Source of the DNA: Saccharothrix sp. NRRL B-16348
GTDB lineage: Bacteria; Actinomycetota; Actinomycetes; Mycobacteriales; Pseudonocardiaceae
Assembly: GCF_001280085.1 (NCBI RefSeq)
Contig: NZ_LGED01000268.1
Location: forward strand, 1 to 51,338
DNA length: 51,338 nt
Direction: 5' to 3'
This document shows positions 9,696-47,258 of this stretch, piece after piece (the first letter of the stretch is position 1; each line of letters starts with the position of its first letter). Both the position numbers and the translations under genes were made by a program. The notes under the pieces are model-generated. The model searched no databases, was not told where the DNA came from, and was given only the letters and a program-made list of their open reading frames with translations.

Positions 9696-10232
9696 GTGAC
9701 TGGTCTGGCGGCCGGCTGGGACCACGCGGCTTTCACGCAGGGTCGAGCCGGCGATGCGGAACACGATGTGGAGCTGCTGCTCGCTTTCCTGAACACCCGA
9801 GACCTCGAACTCGGCACGGACGTCCTGGACAGCGCCGCCGCCTGGCGGGCGTGGGTCACCGAACGCGGCCTGGGCCGGGAGGGTGATCCGCACGAGGTCC
9901 GCGCCGTCCGCGCCTCGCTGCGGGCCTCGCTGGGTGAACGGCACGACGGACCCGATCCGACCCCGGTCGCCGGTCTGATCCGCGTCGACCTCAGCCACGG
10001 CGTGCCGACCATGTCCAGCACCGACGCGCTCGGCGCGGTGCTCGGCGCGGCGGCACGGCTGGCCGTGCTCGGGTCGTGGGAGCGGTTCAAGATCTGCCAG
10101 GCGGACGACTGCCGGTGGGCGTTCTTCGACCGCTCGCGCAACCGCTCGCGCACCTGGTGCTCGATGCAGACGTGCGGCAACCGGGAGAAGGCGCGCAACT
10201 GGCGGGAACGGCGCGCCCTGAGCGTGACCTGA
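9696..10232 (+). CDS. ABATE/CGNR zinc-finger protein
   Basis: This 178-aa protein has the two-part layout of the CGNR family. The N-terminal stress-associated (ABATE) domain begins with DVELLLAFLNTRDLE. The C-terminal zinc finger has C-x4-C (CQADDC), then an Arg-rich FFDRSRNRSRTWCS, then C-x4-C ending in the diagnostic CGNR. It is probably a DNA- or RNA-binding transcriptional regulator. TACAGT (9684-9689) is 6 nt before GTG 9696, suggesting a leaderless transcript. It is convergent with the DUF445 gene across a 22-bp repeat array, and its stop codon lies in the first repeat unit. Confidence 0.9.
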   Translation: MTGLAAGWDHAAFTQGRAGDAEHDVELLLAFLNTRDLELGTDVLDSAAAWRAWVTERGLGREGDPHEVRAVRASLRASLGERHDGPDPTPVAGLIRVDLSHGVPTMSSTDALGAVLGAAARLAVLGSWERFKICQADDCRWAFFDRSRNRSRTWCSMQTCGNREKARNWRERRALSVT

Positions 10233-10376
10233 ACGCGGAACTCGGGGTGCCCGAGCGTTCGACACGCGCGACCTGAGCGTTCGACACGCGCGAGAGTCCT
10301 ACGTTCGCGCCGCGCGTGTCCTACGTCCAGAACGCGCGTGTCCTACGTTCAGGCACCCCGAGTTCAACGCTCAGGT
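10228..10376. repeat. 22-bp unit array 1, head-to-head
   Basis: Reverse-oriented units at 10228-10249 (diverged cap), 10250-10271 and 10272-10293 meet forward units at 10289-10310, 10311-10332, 10333-10354 and a cap at 10355-10376. Core sequences are GTCCTACGTTC in the forward units and CGTTCGACACGCGCG in the reverse units. The two halves form a roughly 48-bp imperfect inverted repeat that reaches into the ends of both convergent genes. It could act as a bidirectional terminator. Confidence 0.85.
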
Positions 10377-15357: not shown

Positions 15358-15467
15358 CCGAGCGTTGAACTCGGGTGTTCCGAACGTAGGACACGCGCGT
15401 TCTGGACGTAGGACACGCGCGACGGGAACGTAGGACTCTCGCGGGCTGGGCGTAGGACTCACGGGAG
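15358..15467. repeat. 22-bp unit array 2
   Basis: A cap unit at 15358-15379 is followed by units at 15380-15401, 15402-15423, 15424-15445 and 15446-15467, all in one orientation with core GAACGTAGGAC. The last unit runs into the convergent methyltransferase gene and supplies its TGA stop (minus strand, 15459-15461). Confidence 0.85.
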
Positions 15468-23868: not shown

Positions 23869-24017
23869 GCCGAGCGTTGAACACGGGGTGCGCGAACGTT
23901 CGACACGCGGCACCTGAGCGTTCGACACGCGCGACGCGAACGTAGGACTCTCGCGAGAGTCCTACGTTCAGGACGCGAGAGTCCTACGTTCGGGAGCGGT
24001 GAGTTCGACGTTCGGGA
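23869..24017. repeat. 22-bp unit array 3, head-to-head with perfect palindrome
   Basis: Units in reverse orientation at 23869-23890 (cap), 23891-23912, 23913-23934 and 23935-23956 meet forward units at 23952-23973, 23974-23995 and a cap at 23996-24017. At the junction 23938-23969 forms a perfect 32-bp palindrome centred on CTCTCGCGAGAG. It lies upstream of the LOG gene and 8 bp from the stop of the lipoprotein gene. Confidence 0.88.
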
Positions 24018-27974: not shown

Positions 27975-29038
<1,064 letters not shown>

Positions 29039-29057
<19 letters not shown>

Positions 29058-29127
29058 TGTCGCCGGTCGGGTGCGAGTTCGGGTGATGTCGCTGGTGGCC
29101 TGCGGGCTCCGGTGATGTCCGCTGGTT
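29039..29127 (+). repeat. Imperfect ~30-bp tandem repeat across murB stop
   Basis: Three copies of a roughly 30-bp unit, each with a CGGGTGATGTCGC-like core (third copy CCGGTGATGTCCGC), start around 29039, 29069 and 29098. The first copy includes the murB TGA. Confidence 0.6.
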
Positions 29128-43277: not shown

Positions 43278-44464
43278 TGAGTCGAGAGAGCGAGTCGGAG
43301 CAGACCCAGCGCACCGTCGCGGAGTTGCTCGCCCAGTACGGCGGGGGCTCCGGCGAGGTGACGCCGCGTCGGCGACGGCGCCGTGCCGAAGAGGCCTCGG
43401 ACACCGCTCCGCAGGCCATCATCGACCGCGTCAACTCCGACAGCGGACGGCTGCGCGCCATCCGGGACGAGTCCGAGGCGCCGCCCGCCGCGCCGCCGTT
43501 GCCCCAGCGGCAGCGGCCGGTCGAGGCCGAGCGCACGGCCTACCAGCCGCCGGTGCCGCCGGTGGCGCGTCCCGAGCGTCCCGAGCCGCCGGTGTCCCGG
43601 CTGGAACCGCCGGTCTCGCGGCTGGACTCGCCCGTGTCCCGGCTCGACCCGCCGAAGCAGGCCGAATCCGGGCGCAGACGCGCGCCCGAGGTCGACCCGG
43701 CCGAGGAGACCCGCGTCGTGCCGCCGATCGTGGCCGACTACCAGGGTGACCAGTCCCGGCCCAACCTGCCGAAACCGCCGCTCAAGCCCGAGACGTCGCG
43801 CTCCAACGTGGTGCGGCCCGTGCCGCCCGGCGCGCCTCCCGCGGCGAAGCCGCCGGTGCGCGAGCCGGTGACCGAGGTGATGCCGCGCATCACCGACAAG
43901 CTCGCGCCGAACGTGCCGCTGGAGTCGCTGCCGACCGAGTCGGTGCTGATCGTGCCGCCCGCGCCGCCGAGGCTGCCCGACCCGCTGCCCGACCAGTCCG
44001 CCGAGGACTGGTTCGGCGACGACGAGCCGGAAGAGGCCGTCGAGGGCGAGAGCACCGCGTTCCACCCGTACGTCGACCTCGACGAGGAAGACGACGACGA
44101 CTACTCGCGCCGCGACTTCCAGCGCCGCGACCTCGACGATGACGGGCCCGCCGGGCTGGGCGACGTCGACGACGAGGACGACGAGCGCCCCGCCGACCGT
44201 TCGGCGGGCAAGGAGTGGCTGCTCATGATCGGGCAGCTGGCCGCGGGCGTGATCGGTGGCGCGGCCCTGTGGCTGGGCTTCAACTACCTGTGGCGCACGG
44301 CCGCGCCCGCGGCGCTGGTGGTGGCACTGGCGGTGACCGTCGGCCTGGTGATGATGGTCCGCAAGATCCGCCGTGCGGACGACCTCCAGACGACGGTCCT
44401 GGCGGTGCTCGTCGGGTTGATCGTGACGGTGTCGCCCGCGGCGATGCTGCTGGTGAACTCTTGA
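43277..44464 (+). CDS. Membrane protein with long disordered N-terminus (Rv0497-like)
   Basis: This is a 395-aa protein. The first 310 residues are Pro/Arg/Glu-rich and mostly disordered: a short conserved start (TVAELLAQYGG), repeats of LEPPVSRLDSPVSRLDPP, then an acidic Asp/Glu region. The last 85 residues have three TM helices (WLLMIGQLAAGVIGGAALWL, AAPAALVVALAVTVGLVMMV and TTVLAVLVGLIVTVSPAAML). It follows ppx and overlaps its stop by one base, as Rv0497 does in M. tuberculosis. Function unknown. Confidence 0.87.
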   Translation: MSRESESEQTQRTVAELLAQYGGGSGEVTPRRRRRRAEEASDTAPQAIIDRVNSDSGRLRAIRDESEAPPAAPPLPQRQRPVEAERTAYQPPVPPVARPERPEPPVSRLEPPVSRLDSPVSRLDPPKQAESGRRRAPEVDPAEETRVVPPIVADYQGDQSRPNLPKPPLKPETSRSNVVRPVPPGAPPAAKPPVREPVTEVMPRITDKLAPNVPLESLPTESVLIVPPAPPRLPDPLPDQSAEDWFGDDEPEEAVEGESTAFHPYVDLDEEDDDDYSRRDFQRRDLDDDGPAGLGDVDDEDDERPADRSAGKEWLLMIGQLAAGVIGGAALWLGFNYLWRTAAPAALVVALAVTVGLVMMVRKIRRADDLQTTVLAVLVGLIVTVSPAAMLLVNS

Positions 44465-45246
44465 TCCCGGTCGGCCTGTCCACCGCGGCCGTGTGGCCGC
44501 AGCCCGCCGGCGCCGCGTTCGAGGCCGCCGCCGAGCTGGGGTACGACGGCGTCGAGCTCATGGTGTGGGCCGATCCGGTGAGCCAGGACGTGCGCGCGGT
44601 CGAACGGCTCTCGAAGCGCTACGCGATGCCGGTGCTGGCCGTGCACGCGCCGTGCCTGCTGATCAGCCAGCGCGTGTGGTCGCCGGACCCGGCCGAGCGG
44701 CTGCGGCGCAGCGTGCGCGCCGCCGCCGACCTGGGCGCGCGGACCGTCGTGCTGCACCCGCCGTTCGTGTGGCAGCGGCGGTACGCGGAGGGCTTCGCCG
44801 ACCTGGTCGCGTCGCTGGAGGACGACAGCGGCGTCGCCATCGCGGTGGAGAACATGTTCCCGGTGCGGCGTCCCCTCGGGCGGGGGCGATCGGTGCAGGT
44901 CACGGCGTTCCGGCCGTCGATCGACCCGACCGACGTCGGGCACCGGAACTACACGCTCGACCTGTCGCACGCGTCGGCCGCGCACGTGGACACGATGGAG
45001 CTGGCCAAGCGGATGGGCGACGGGCTCACCCACGTGCACCTGGCGGACGGCTCCGGCCTGCCCAAGGACGAGCACCTGGTGCCCGGCCGCGGCACCGAGC
45101 CGTGCGCCGAGCTGCTGTCCCACCTGACCCGCACGGGCTTCACCGGGCAGGTCGTGCTGGAGGTCAACACCCGCCGCGCCCGCACCGCCGCCGAGCGGTC
45201 CGAGCTCCTGGCCGAATCCCTCCTGTTCGCCCGCCTCCACCTCTGA
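44461..45246 (+). CDS. TIM-barrel sugar phosphate isomerase/epimerase-like protein
   Basis: This 261-aa protein has the AP endonuclease 2/xylose isomerase-like barrel, with metal-binding residues plausible in GYDGVELMVW, VLAVHAPCLL, VVLHPPF, AVENMF, YTLDLSHASA, HVHLADGSG and VVLEVNT. It corresponds to Rv0498 in the ppx-Rv0497-Rv0498 order. The TTG start at 44461 overlaps the previous stop (TTGA). The substrate is unknown. A repeat array starts 4 nt after its stop. Confidence 0.87.
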   Translation: MIPVGLSTAAVWPQPAGAAFEAAAELGYDGVELMVWADPVSQDVRAVERLSKRYAMPVLAVHAPCLLISQRVWSPDPAERLRRSVRAAADLGARTVVLHPPFVWQRRYAEGFADLVASLEDDSGVAIAVENMFPVRRPLGRGRSVQVTAFRPSIDPTDVGHRNYTLDLSHASAAHVDTMELAKRMGDGLTHVHLADGSGLPKDEHLVPGRGTEPCAELLSHLTRTGFTGQVVLEVNTRRARTAAERSELLAESLLFARLHL

Positions 45247-45250
45247 CCTC

Positions 45251-45338
45251 CGCGCGTGTCCTACCTTCAGAACGCGCGTGTCCTACGTTCGCGTCGCGAG
45301 AGTCCTACGTTCAGGACGCGTGAATTCAACGCTCAGGT
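45251..45338. repeat. 22-bp unit array 4
   Basis: Three forward units (45251-45272, 45273-45294, 45295-45316; core GTCCTACGTTC, one with CTACCTTC) and a cap (45317-45338) with GAATTCAACGCTCAG. It lies between the isomerase gene and the PRODH promoter, 4 nt after a stop codon. Confidence 0.88.
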
Positions 45339-45395
45339 CGACGGACGGCGAACTCGCATCCGCTCCGGCGCCGGTCAGCGGCTAGGGTCTTGATC

Positions 45396-46316
45396 GTGAA
45401 CCCGTTGCGCACGTTGATCCTCGCCGCCGCGGGCAACGACACGGTGCGCCGGGTCGTCGCGACCGCCCCCGTCAGCCGCGACGTGGTCCGCCGGTTCGTG
45501 GCGGGCGAGACCACCGCGGACGCGATCGACGCGGCCGGCCGGCTCATCGGCGACGGCCTGCGCGTCACCCTCGACCACCTCGGCGAGGACACCGCCGACC
45601 GCGCCACCGCCGAACGGACCGTGCGCGCCTACCTGGAGCTGCTCGACCAGCTGCACGACGTCGGCCTCGCCGCGGACGCCGAGGTCAGCGTGAAGCTGTC
45701 CGCCGTGGGCCTCGGCCTGAGCGAGACGGTCGCGCTGGACAACGCCTCCCGCATCTGCGCGGCGGCCGAGCAGGCGGGCACCACGGTCACGCTCGACATG
45801 GAGGACCACACCACCACCGACGCCACGCTGCGCGTGCTCGCCGAGCTGCGCCGCCACTGGCCGTCGGTGGGCGCGGTGCTCCAGGCGTACCTGCGCCGCA
45901 CCCTGGACGACGTGCGCGAACTCGCGGACACGCGCGTGCGGCTGTGCAAGGGCGCGTACGCCGAACCGCCGTCGGTGGCCTTCGTCGACCCGCACGAGGT
46001 CGACGTCAACTACGTGCGCTGCGCCAACGTGCTGCTGGCCGGCTCCGGTTACCCGATGTTCGCCACCCACGACCCGCGCCTGATCGAGATCGTCTCCGAA
46101 CGCGCCCGCTGGTACGGCAAGCCGGTCGAGGACTTCGAGTTCCAGATGCTCTACGGCGTCCGGACGGGCGAGCAGCGGCACCTGGCGGCGGAGGGGCACG
46201 TCGTGCGCGTCTACGTGCCGTTCGGCGGGCAGTGGTACGGGTACCTGATGCGCCGGCTCGCCGAGCGACCGGCCAACGTCGCGTTCTTCCTGCGTTCGCT
46301 GGTCAGCCGCTCGTGA
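45396..46316 (+). CDS. Proline dehydrogenase
   Basis: This 306-aa monofunctional PRODH oxidises proline to pyrroline-5-carboxylate with FAD. It shows the barrel motifs EVSVKLSAVGL, VTLDMEDHTTTDATL, QAYLRRTLDDV, VRLCKGAYAEP, FATHDPRLIE, FEFQMLYGVR and the C-terminal VYVPFGGQWYGYLMRRLAER substrate loop. GTG 45396 follows TAGGGT (45383-45388) at 7 nt. P5C dehydrogenase is not adjacent. proC is 1 kb downstream, so synthesis and breakdown genes of proline sit together. Confidence 0.95.
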   Translation: MNPLRTLILAAAGNDTVRRVVATAPVSRDVVRRFVAGETTADAIDAAGRLIGDGLRVTLDHLGEDTADRATAERTVRAYLELLDQLHDVGLAADAEVSVKLSAVGLGLSETVALDNASRICAAAEQAGTTVTLDMEDHTTTDATLRVLAELRRHWPSVGAVLQAYLRRTLDDVRELADTRVRLCKGAYAEPPSVAFVDPHEVDVNYVRCANVLLAGSGYPMFATHDPRLIEIVSERARWYGKPVEDFEFQMLYGVRTGEQRHLAAEGHVVRVYVPFGGQWYGYLMRRLAERPANVAFFLRSLVSRS

Positions 46317-46324
46317 GGAGCCCT

Positions 46325-47131
46325 GTGTCCTTCTCGGTAGCCAGTGCGGTCCGCCCCCTCGGCGACGGCACGTACACCGCGTCCCTGCCCGCCGAGTGGA
46401 CCGTCGGTCCCAAGCCGCACGGCGGGTTCCTGCTGGCCCTGGTCGCGCGGGCGGCGGTGGACAGCGCGCGGGCGGCCGTGCCGGGAGCCGACGACCTGGC
46501 GCCGCTGGCGGTGAGCACGCAGTTCCTGCGCGCGCCCGAGGTGGGGCCGGTGCTGGTGCGGACCGAGGTGCGCAAGGCGGGGCGGACGGCGACCGTGGTG
46601 ACGTCCACGTTGGAGCAGCGGGGCCGCAGTTGCGTGGAGGCGGTGGTGACGGTCGGGCGGATGCCGACGGCCGCGCCGGACTACGTCGACCTGCCCGACA
46701 TGCCCGCCGCGCCGCCCGTGGACGCGATCGACCTGGCGTCGATGGGGTCCGGCGGGGTGTACAAGCTCGGGTCGGTGTGCGACGTGCGGCTGGACCAGGC
46801 GGGCGCCGGGTTCCTGGCCGGGCGGGTCGGCGACCCGTTGGTGCTGCGGCTGTGGGCGCGTCCGCTCGGTGAGCGGCCGGACCCGTACTTCGCGCTGATC
46901 GCCGGTGACATCTCGATGCCGGTGACGTTCAACCTGGGCCGGTTCGGGTGGTCGCCGACCGTGCAGCTGACGGCGTTGCTGCGGGCGAACCCGGCGCCGG
47001 GGTGGCTGCGCGTGCGGGTGTCGTGCAGCGCGGTGCACGGGCAGTGGTTCGACGAGGACGCCGTGGTGATCGACTCGGCCGGGCGGCTGGTGTGCCAGGC
47101 GCGGCAGTTGGCGCTGACGCCGGCGACCTGA
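46325..47131 (+). CDS. Acyl-CoA thioesterase (double hotdog)
   Basis: This 268-aa protein has a TesB/4HBT_3-like double hotdog: N-terminal WTVGPKPHGGFLLALVARAA with the family HGG, STQFLRAPEVGPVLVRTEVR, and a C-terminal half with GDISMPVTFNLGRFG and WFDEDAVVIDSAGRLVCQARQL. It hydrolyses acyl-CoAs in general; the substrate is unknown. GTG 46325 has GAGGAG 5 nt upstream and lies 8 nt after the PRODH stop, so the two are probably co-transcribed. Its TGA lies in the cap of repeat array 5. Confidence 0.85.
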   Translation: MSFSVASAVRPLGDGTYTASLPAEWTVGPKPHGGFLLALVARAAVDSARAAVPGADDLAPLAVSTQFLRAPEVGPVLVRTEVRKAGRTATVVTSTLEQRGRSCVEAVVTVGRMPTAAPDYVDLPDMPAAPPVDAIDLASMGSGGVYKLGSVCDVRLDQAGAGFLAGRVGDPLVLRLWARPLGERPDPYFALIAGDISMPVTFNLGRFGWSPTVQLTALLRANPAPGWLRVRVSCSAVHGQWFDEDAVVIDSAGRLVCQARQLALTPAT

Positions 47132-47258
47132 GCGTTGAATTCAGGTGTCCTGAGCGTAGGACACGCGCGTTCTGAGCGTAGGACACGCGCGTTCTGAACG
47201 TAGGACTCTCGCGACGTGAACGTAGGACTCGCGCGTTCTGGAGGTGGGACACGCGTGG
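47127..47258. repeat. 22-bp unit array 5
   Basis: A cap (47127-47148) that contains the thioesterase stop and GAATTC is followed by five reverse units (47149-47170, 47171-47192, 47193-47214, 47215-47236, 47237-47258) with core GAGCGTAGGACACGCGCG. The array is exactly periodic at 22 bp and ends 45 nt before the proC start. Confidence 0.9.

Follow-up and report, generated by a model that had tools for sequence, protein, structure and literature searches.

What kind of element are the tandem arrays of 22-bp units that lie between genes at five places in a stretch of the Saccharothrix sp. NRRL B-16348 genome, and what might they do there? The stretch, here called the window, is the whole of the 51,338 nucleotides that were analysed. 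A sequence-only reading of it had offered a bidirectional terminator, a nucleoid-protein site, a replication or recombination signal and a mobile mini-element as candidates, and knew of no named family with this structure. The last point stands as far as it was checked: no description of the 22-bp family was found in searches of open-licence papers, some of them aimed at related kinds of repeat, the terms 'repeat' and 'palindrom' are absent from the text of the S. espanaensis genome paper, and Rfam gave no match in the whole window up to E = 1, on which ground a known RNA family was rejected. Our best reading is that the arrays represent an undescribed family of modular interspersed repeats in Saccharothrix, comparable to BOX elements and BIMEs.

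Anatomy and abundance of the arrays

All five arrays were reproduced with their 22-bp period (Table 1), and those at sites 2, 4 and 5 run in one orientation each, as had been read. Sites 1 and 3 do consist of two opposed arms, but these are joined tail-to-tail and not head-to-head, with a 4-bp overlap (CGCG) between their middle units. Units do follow one another without spacer as far as register is concerned, but in sequence each 22-mer is an 18-bp core, GRRCG-NNN-GAC-WCNCGCG, followed by a variable 4-nt linker. In arrays 1 and 3, units with '-TTC-' belong to a sub-type of the shared unit, and each of the five window arrays also has a terminal head unit of different spelling, CYGAGCGTTGAAYTCRG or a variant of it.

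Table 1. Arrays, modules and junctions in the window
Feature	Position	Strand	Remarks
Site 1, two-armed, tail-to-tail	10229..10374	.	Fold z -9.7 / -11.7; occupies the whole spacer, which is flanked by a CGNR zinc-finger gene (+) and by a DUF445 gene (-)
Site 1, left head	10229-10248		
Site 1, units	10253-10270, 10275-10292	+	
Site 1, units	10289-10306, 10311-10328, 10333-10350	-	
Site 1, right head	10355-10374	-	
Site 1, tail-to-tail junction	10289..10292	.	Last + and first - unit overlap by 4 bp, 14 bp start-to-start
Site 2, one-armed	15358..15467	+	Fold z -0.2 / -0.9; between convergent genes
Site 2, head	15358-15377		
Site 2, units	15382-15399, 15404-15421, 15426-15443		
Site 2, end unit	15448-15465		
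Site 3, two-armed, tail-to-tail	23869..24017	.	Fold z -6.3 / -6.0
Site 3, head	23870-23889		
Site 3, units	23894-23911, 23916-23933, 23938-23955	+	
Site 3, units	23952-23969, 23974-23991	-	
Site 3, right head	about 23996-24013	-	
Site 3, tail-to-tail junction	23952..23955	.	14-bp geometry as at site 1
Site 4, one-armed	45251..45338	-	Fold z -1.4 / -0.6; starts 4 bp past the stop of a TIM-barrel gene (44461-45246)
Site 4, tail	45251-45268		GAAGG type
Site 4, body	45273-45290, 45295-45312		
Site 4, head	45317-45336		
Site 5, one-armed	47127..47258	+	Fold z -2.9 / -1.8; head shares bases with the stop codon of a gene that ends at 47131
Site 5, head	47128-47147		
Site 5, body	47152-47169, 47174-47191, 47196-47213, 47218-47235		
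Site 5, tail	47240-47257		GGAGG type
Unrelated 29-bp tandem repeat	29036..29119		2.9 copies

The genome-wide search that the sequence-only reading had proposed returned hundreds of copies. In G000, the genome that contains the window (10,894,815 bases in 278 contigs), a strict pattern, RCGTAGGACWCNCGCG, had 350 matches as against 0 for its reversed control, exact-pattern counts being lower bounds here and below. As to the period, in the 152 kb of non-coding DNA of the G000 sample, 38 three-unit tandem arrays were found at a period of 22, one at 21 and none at 23, with other peaks of 25 at period 12 (the lowest tried), eight at 15 and eight at 44, the last of these being a multiple of 22. One spelling of two adjacent units was found in 49 stretches of a named genome collection, a scan which may omit records of the window's own genome; all 49 belong to Saccharothrix records (S. 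sp. S26, S. luteola, S. carnea and S. sp. ALI-22-I).

Arms follow a modular plan, with a head unit and a variable number of body units, to which a distinct tail unit is often added, and they occur singly, tail-to-tail, or head-to-head around a short loop. Over 55 G000 arms, collected by a search for a head accompanied by two or more units, the consensus is tGtnCtGAGCGTTGAACTCggg for the head and GAACGTAGGACaCgCGCG for the body, with 2 to 10 units after the head. The tail is recognisable at position 4, which is G in 17/26 last units of open arms as against 14/126 non-last units (Fisher p 2e-8; G000 open arms of three or more units), and in only 2/16 last units where the arm ends at a tail-to-tail junction. 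Junctions themselves are regular: all eight tail-to-tail junctions in the G000 sample measure 14 bp start-to-start with the 4-bp CGCG overlap, and 9 of the 11 head-to-head junctions measure 82-83 bp (the remaining two 116 and 61).

The position of a unit within its arm matters in the window's own genome, where two units taken from different loci resemble each other more if they have the same rank from the head than if their ranks differ (15.02 vs 14.35; 0/200 shuffles) under a stricter head definition than that of an earlier version, which counted nested arms. This rank effect was not seen in G016 (14.86 vs 14.87, with nested arms still counted). Compared rank by rank, the two opposed arms of a head-to-head element also resemble each other more closely than arms from different elements do (16.07 vs 15.07 of 18, n=29, p 5e-5). 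The same comparison gave no effect for tail-to-tail arms (14.14 vs 14.10, n=35) and p = 0.09 when pooled; a mirror constraint between arms is supported for head-to-head arms only. Hairpins between neighbouring units on the same strand were considered and rejected, since the first linker base covaries with the stem base of the next unit (Fisher p 0.014) but more strongly with that of the preceding one (p 0.0016), and this offers no evidence for pairing.

Placement at gene ends and folding

Positions were scored in 1.25 of the 10.9 Mb of G000, a non-random sample since it consists of the contigs of a first listing plus the window, with genes outside the window called by a home-made codon-usage finder. 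Among 37 elements, 18 lie between convergent genes, 16 between codirectional genes and one between divergent genes, and two were scored inside genes, partly through errors of the gene finder. If all spacers of 30 bp or more are counted, the 35 intergenic elements would be expected to divide into 5.6 convergent, 20.0 codirectional and 9.5 divergent cases, which makes the convergent excess (two-sided binomial p 1e-6) and the divergent deficit (p 4e-4) pronounced and leaves the codirectional class near expectation (p 0.23). Within that class, 13/16 elements overlap the upstream stop or start no more than 30 bp from it (8.4 expected, p 0.005), and 5/16 also have their end 30 bp or less from the downstream start. 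Coding sequence makes up about 88% of the sample, so the 2/37 elements inside genes are far from the random intragenic placement that would have spoken against an intergenic family; one of the two directly follows a stop where two genes overlap, and the other falls within a coding linker. The sequence shows that the arrays are located at the 3' ends of genes and seldom between divergent ones. At the scale of single sites, array 3 proved to be flanked by two minus-strand genes and does not lie between convergent genes.

Two further observations concern location. By eye, the two units at G000:C124:179741-179780 (L282) fall in an ORF, in what looks to be the flexible linker of a lipoyl-domain (E2-like) protein, and apparently represent a genuine intragenic copy. 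Elsewhere, units are found no more than a few hundred bases from the end of a contig (G000:C8:229 and C101:146; G010:C45:193 and C40:386), which suggests that arrays may break short-read assemblies.

Gene-end placement naturally raises the possibility of termination. Folding was predicted for 25 elements (14 two-armed, 10 one-armed and one mixed), with array-free spacers as controls. Two-armed elements fold strongly on both strands, with mean z of -10.1/-9.5 for tail-to-tail (n=6) and -12.8/-13.2 for head-to-head elements (n=8), whereas one-armed arrays reach only -1.5/-1.4 (n=10) and the mixed element -1.7/-0.4 (n=1). Control spacers gave -1.5 when codirectional (n=37), -6.0 when convergent (n=6) and -0.5 when divergent (n=17). 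Strong hairpins are therefore a property of two-armed elements, although convergent spacers fold well even when free of arrays, and termination is not the common role, since one-armed arrays fold no better than codirectional controls. The earlier suggestion of a bidirectional terminator thus fits the position of the arrays and the folding of two-armed copies on both strands, but not the one-armed copies. It is plausible that two-armed copies would terminate transcription.

A stronger version of this idea, in which the arrays are simply bidirectional intrinsic terminators made of repeats and maintained by selection for termination, seems to us quite improbable. It would account for the gene-end position, for the two-armed z of about -10 to -13 on both strands, and for the situation at site 1 in the array-less G008 and G009, where a plain hairpin occupies the place between the same two stops (by eye). 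On the other hand, it does not account for one-armed arrays that fold no more than controls, nor for the spacer of site 4 in array-less species, which has no evident hairpin by eye, and alone it leaves unexplained a sequence change common to several sites.

The chromosomal distribution bears on another of the original candidates, a replication signal. Loci are crowded into the origin-proximal half in two complete genomes, G006 (51/63) and G020 (26/28), the count pattern missing many CAT-type units of G020, for which the unit listing shows the same crowding. The third complete genome, G014, has no such enrichment (8/14 loci, from few and loose matches), and the strand of units is not clearly matched to replication (25 vs 38, 10 vs 18 and 6 vs 8). 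Even though two of three complete genomes are strongly enriched near the origin, a replication signal is unlikely because the copies number in the hundreds and are dispersed. The crowding in G006 and G020 may only mean that old elements have survived in the conserved half of the chromosome.

Orthologous sites, spelling and copying

The core triplet varies between genomes. Counts of the exact core in 25 Saccharothrix genomes, with a slightly different tail in the CAT pattern and with the TAC units listed for G008 and G009 left out, identified 15 carriers with at least 10 counted units (Table 2), the remaining 10/25 genomes having 0 to 2 of each triplet. Several triplets coexist within one genome. 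Among the four counted, TAG is the commonest in 8/15 carriers and TTG, TTC or CAT in 7/15, so that a spelling is common to several species and not unique to each.

Table 2. Exact-core counts by core triplet in the 15 carriers
Genome	TAG	TTC	TTG	CAT
G000	350	40	2	0
G004	61	13	140	0
G005	139	44	2	0
G006	138	22	0	0
G008	1	1	11	0
G009	1	6	35	0
G010	200	37	3	0
G014	5	60	0	0
G015	195	1	3	0
G016	38	45	200	0
G017	380	2	4	0
G019	78	19	55	0
G020	0	27	0	185
G022	181	0	62	0
G024	0	0	0	14

A search for two adjacent units with the triplet left free was positive in 24/297 genomes of the family to which Saccharothrix belongs, from 6/46 genera; these are 15 Saccharothrix genomes and nine others, five of the nine with 1 to 3 matches. 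The commonest triplets listed for other genera are TAC (G054), TGG (G222) and, within one genus, GGG and GGC (G142, G280). At the level of sequence, then, the core triplet differs between lineages around a skeleton whose constancy is partly by construction, being fixed in the search patterns. Outside Saccharothrix, G222 is of separate interest: several differently spelled 22-bp sub-families coexist there (L245, L250, L259, L267, L271), one locus (L267) containing some eight nearly identical GAACGCGGAACACGCACGACAG units in a row.

How do copies within a genome come to share a spelling? The flanks of the five window sites served to find their orthologues in fetched stretches. After cleaning (body units only, 45 arrays in 12 genomes, with phantom opposite-strand units and a chance pair in G018 removed), the mean distance between units, out of 18, was 3.81 for different sites of one genome, 4.12 for the same site in different genomes and 4.40 where both differed. 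Permuting genome labels within sites gave a mean of 4.38, and 0/2000 permutations reached 3.81; uncleaned distances fall in the same order (4.75, 5.12 and 5.40). Without G014, G016 and G020, which leaves nine genomes, same-site and same-genome distances are close to equal (3.35 and 3.42; 1/2000 permutations). Copies at different sites of one genome are thus homogenised, if only partly.

Architecture behaves differently from sequence. Besides the window sites, 11 G000 elements have an orthologue in another species, and by eye all 11 pairs agree in architecture and orientation but diverge in core triplet, copy number or loop; in one, G000:C56:80525, the left arm of the G016 orthologue is a single unit with no evident head. 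Most orthologue loci were fetched because they bear arrays, so that occupancy is biased, though three came from G016 stretches that were not selected for arrays. Loops offer a sign of copying. An 8-nt loop, AGATCGAC or its complement, is found in 5/7 strict head-to-head cores among the loci examined (four in G000, one in S. sp. S26), and within G000 in 4/11 head-to-head junctions plus a truncated fifth at C124. The element at G000:C146:77507 carries this loop and its S26 orthologue (L075) another, which suggests that the core was replaced at a site that stayed occupied.

Such exchange could also result from transposition. The proposed mobile mini-element gains from the identical loop in the head-to-head core at several unrelated loci and from site 5, whose orthologue is empty in G004, G014, G017, G008, G009, G018 and G023 and occupied in G000, G010, G016, G019 and G022, by unit matches also in G005, G006, G015 and G020. 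It loses from the lack of a target-site duplication at site 5, of PF01797, the REP transposase family, in G000, and of any match in viral contigs, plasmids or phages. Comparison of filled and empty sites showed no duplication there; GACCTG flanks the array, yet both copies pre-exist in the empty site, and insertion with target duplication was rejected. IMG/VR held no match to the exact two-unit TAG pattern and plasmids and phages none to one 132-bp query each, so that carriage by phages or plasmids was likewise dismissed. As for neighbouring sites, the arms of 4 and 5 (window 45251-47258) point head-first towards each other, with a proline dehydrogenase gene and a thioesterase gene in between, and both sites are occupied also in G005, G006, G010, G015, G016, G019, G020 and G022.

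We regard it as decidedly unlikely that the arrays are REPIN-like non-autonomous transposons moved by a putative transposase, with apparent conversion being repeated insertion into existing copies. The head-to-head core and loop common to dispersed loci, the presence and absence of the site 5 array, the intragenic copy at G000:C124:179741 and the chain of three alternating arms at the G016 orthologue of site 4 (by eye) would all be expected of such an element. Nevertheless, PF01797 has matches in only 5/25 Saccharothrix genomes, four of them carriers (G005, G006, G016, G024) and one (G012) without counted units, and in neither G000 nor 11/15 carriers, so that RAYT transposition is unsupported and a RAYT-mobilised REP was rejected; the missing target duplication, the missing viral, plasmid and phage matches and the shared architecture at orthologous sites also argue against it.

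The main rival is of a different nature. Tandem operators for a sequence-specific DNA-binding protein (a nucleoid, segregation, gyrase-recruiting or competence factor) could show a triplet that follows the changing specificity of the protein; the 22-bp step, about two turns of DNA, would place the sites on one face of the helix, and the variants would resemble the dialects of DNA uptake sequences. Selection by a changing protein of this kind could also alter sequence and keep architecture. An exact 22-bp period, one skeleton with different triplets across genomes and genera, architecture retained while sequence changes, and origin-proximal enrichment in G006 (51/63) and G020 (26/28) are all in line with it. 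Weighing on the other side are a skeleton partly built into the search patterns, the coexistence of several unit spellings per genome, TAG as the commonest counted triplet in at least seven species, the absence of origin enrichment in G014 together with strands that do not clearly follow replication, and loops and tail variants shared by unrelated loci, which would be unexpected under point-by-point co-evolution. Taken together, we consider this reading possible but doubtful.

The explanation that we prefer, and to which we give roughly even credence, is a family of modular repeats placed at gene ends, whose copies become partly alike through exchange from site to site and whose two-armed members would serve as terminators or transcript-end hairpins. 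New sites would arise by rare insertion or copying and be retained where harmless, just behind stop codons. Copies would then swap sequence by ectopic gene conversion, perhaps triggered by breaks at hairpins or cruciforms of two-armed elements, for which SbcCD is a possible source, and two-armed elements would act as bidirectional terminators or transcript-end hairpins. Ectopic gene conversion would be the simplest route to changed units within a kept architecture; conversion between such short tracts, like the function of the arrays, is something we infer from comparing sequences. This explanation has its own difficulties, namely that homogenisation is partial, that the rank effect was not seen in G016 and that tail-to-tail arms lack the mirror effect.

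Known repeat kinds and wider meaning

MIRU and other mycobacterial intergenic tandem repeats also lie in tandem between actinobacterial genes, but differ from the 22-bp arrays in unit length and architecture. A similar plan is that of the BOX elements of Streptococcus pneumoniae, which have a modular boxA-boxB(n)-boxC organisation in many dispersed copies (PMC3049150). The arrays share with them an end module, variable tandem central modules, another end module and dispersal, with 2-10 units after the head and a tail signature (17/26 vs 14/126). They differ in their 22-bp units, in their GC-rich actinobacterial hosts, in arms that also form inverted pairs and in a triplet that varies by lineage, the likeness being one of plan.

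REP, BIME and REPIN elements with their RAYT transposases are a second reference kind (PMC2817692, PMC3116915), with features both shared and lacking. More than 100 mostly extragenic copies (here 350 strict matches, and 35/37 intergenic), opposed arms at fixed spacing, two-armed hairpins and a spelling that varies by lineage are shared. The unit is no palindrome, however, and one-armed arrays fold like codirectional controls (z about -1.5); the GTAG-type 5' tetranucleotide kept in most REPs tabulated (PMC2817692) has no constant counterpart, since the TAG of CGTAGGAC becomes TTC, TTG or CAT in other species; and a cognate Y1 transposase (PF01797) was found in neither G000 nor 11/15 carriers.

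A third comparison is with the DNA uptake sequence dialects of Neisseriaceae, which are species-conserved variants whose inverted pairs are associated with terminators (PMC3630211). Both are short sequences with a constant part and variants, and both form inverted pairs at terminators or gene ends, but the present units form 22-bp tandem arrays, number in the hundreds and not thousands, and have several spellings per genome. By analogy, one might imagine a genome-wide address system at actinobacterial gene ends, in which helically phased tandem sites for a putative DNA-binding or recombination protein carry a 'dialect' triplet that differs between lineages and to which copies are rewritten, much as in Neisseria but arranged as tandem arrays; we consider this unlikely.

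Repeats that keep their place and architecture while their sequence is rewritten at many sites could provide a read-out of copying between distant chromosomal sites or, alternatively, of a DNA-binding protein changing its target. If the two-armed copies do terminate transcription, part of the gene ends in these antibiotic-producing bacteria would be supplied by repeats.
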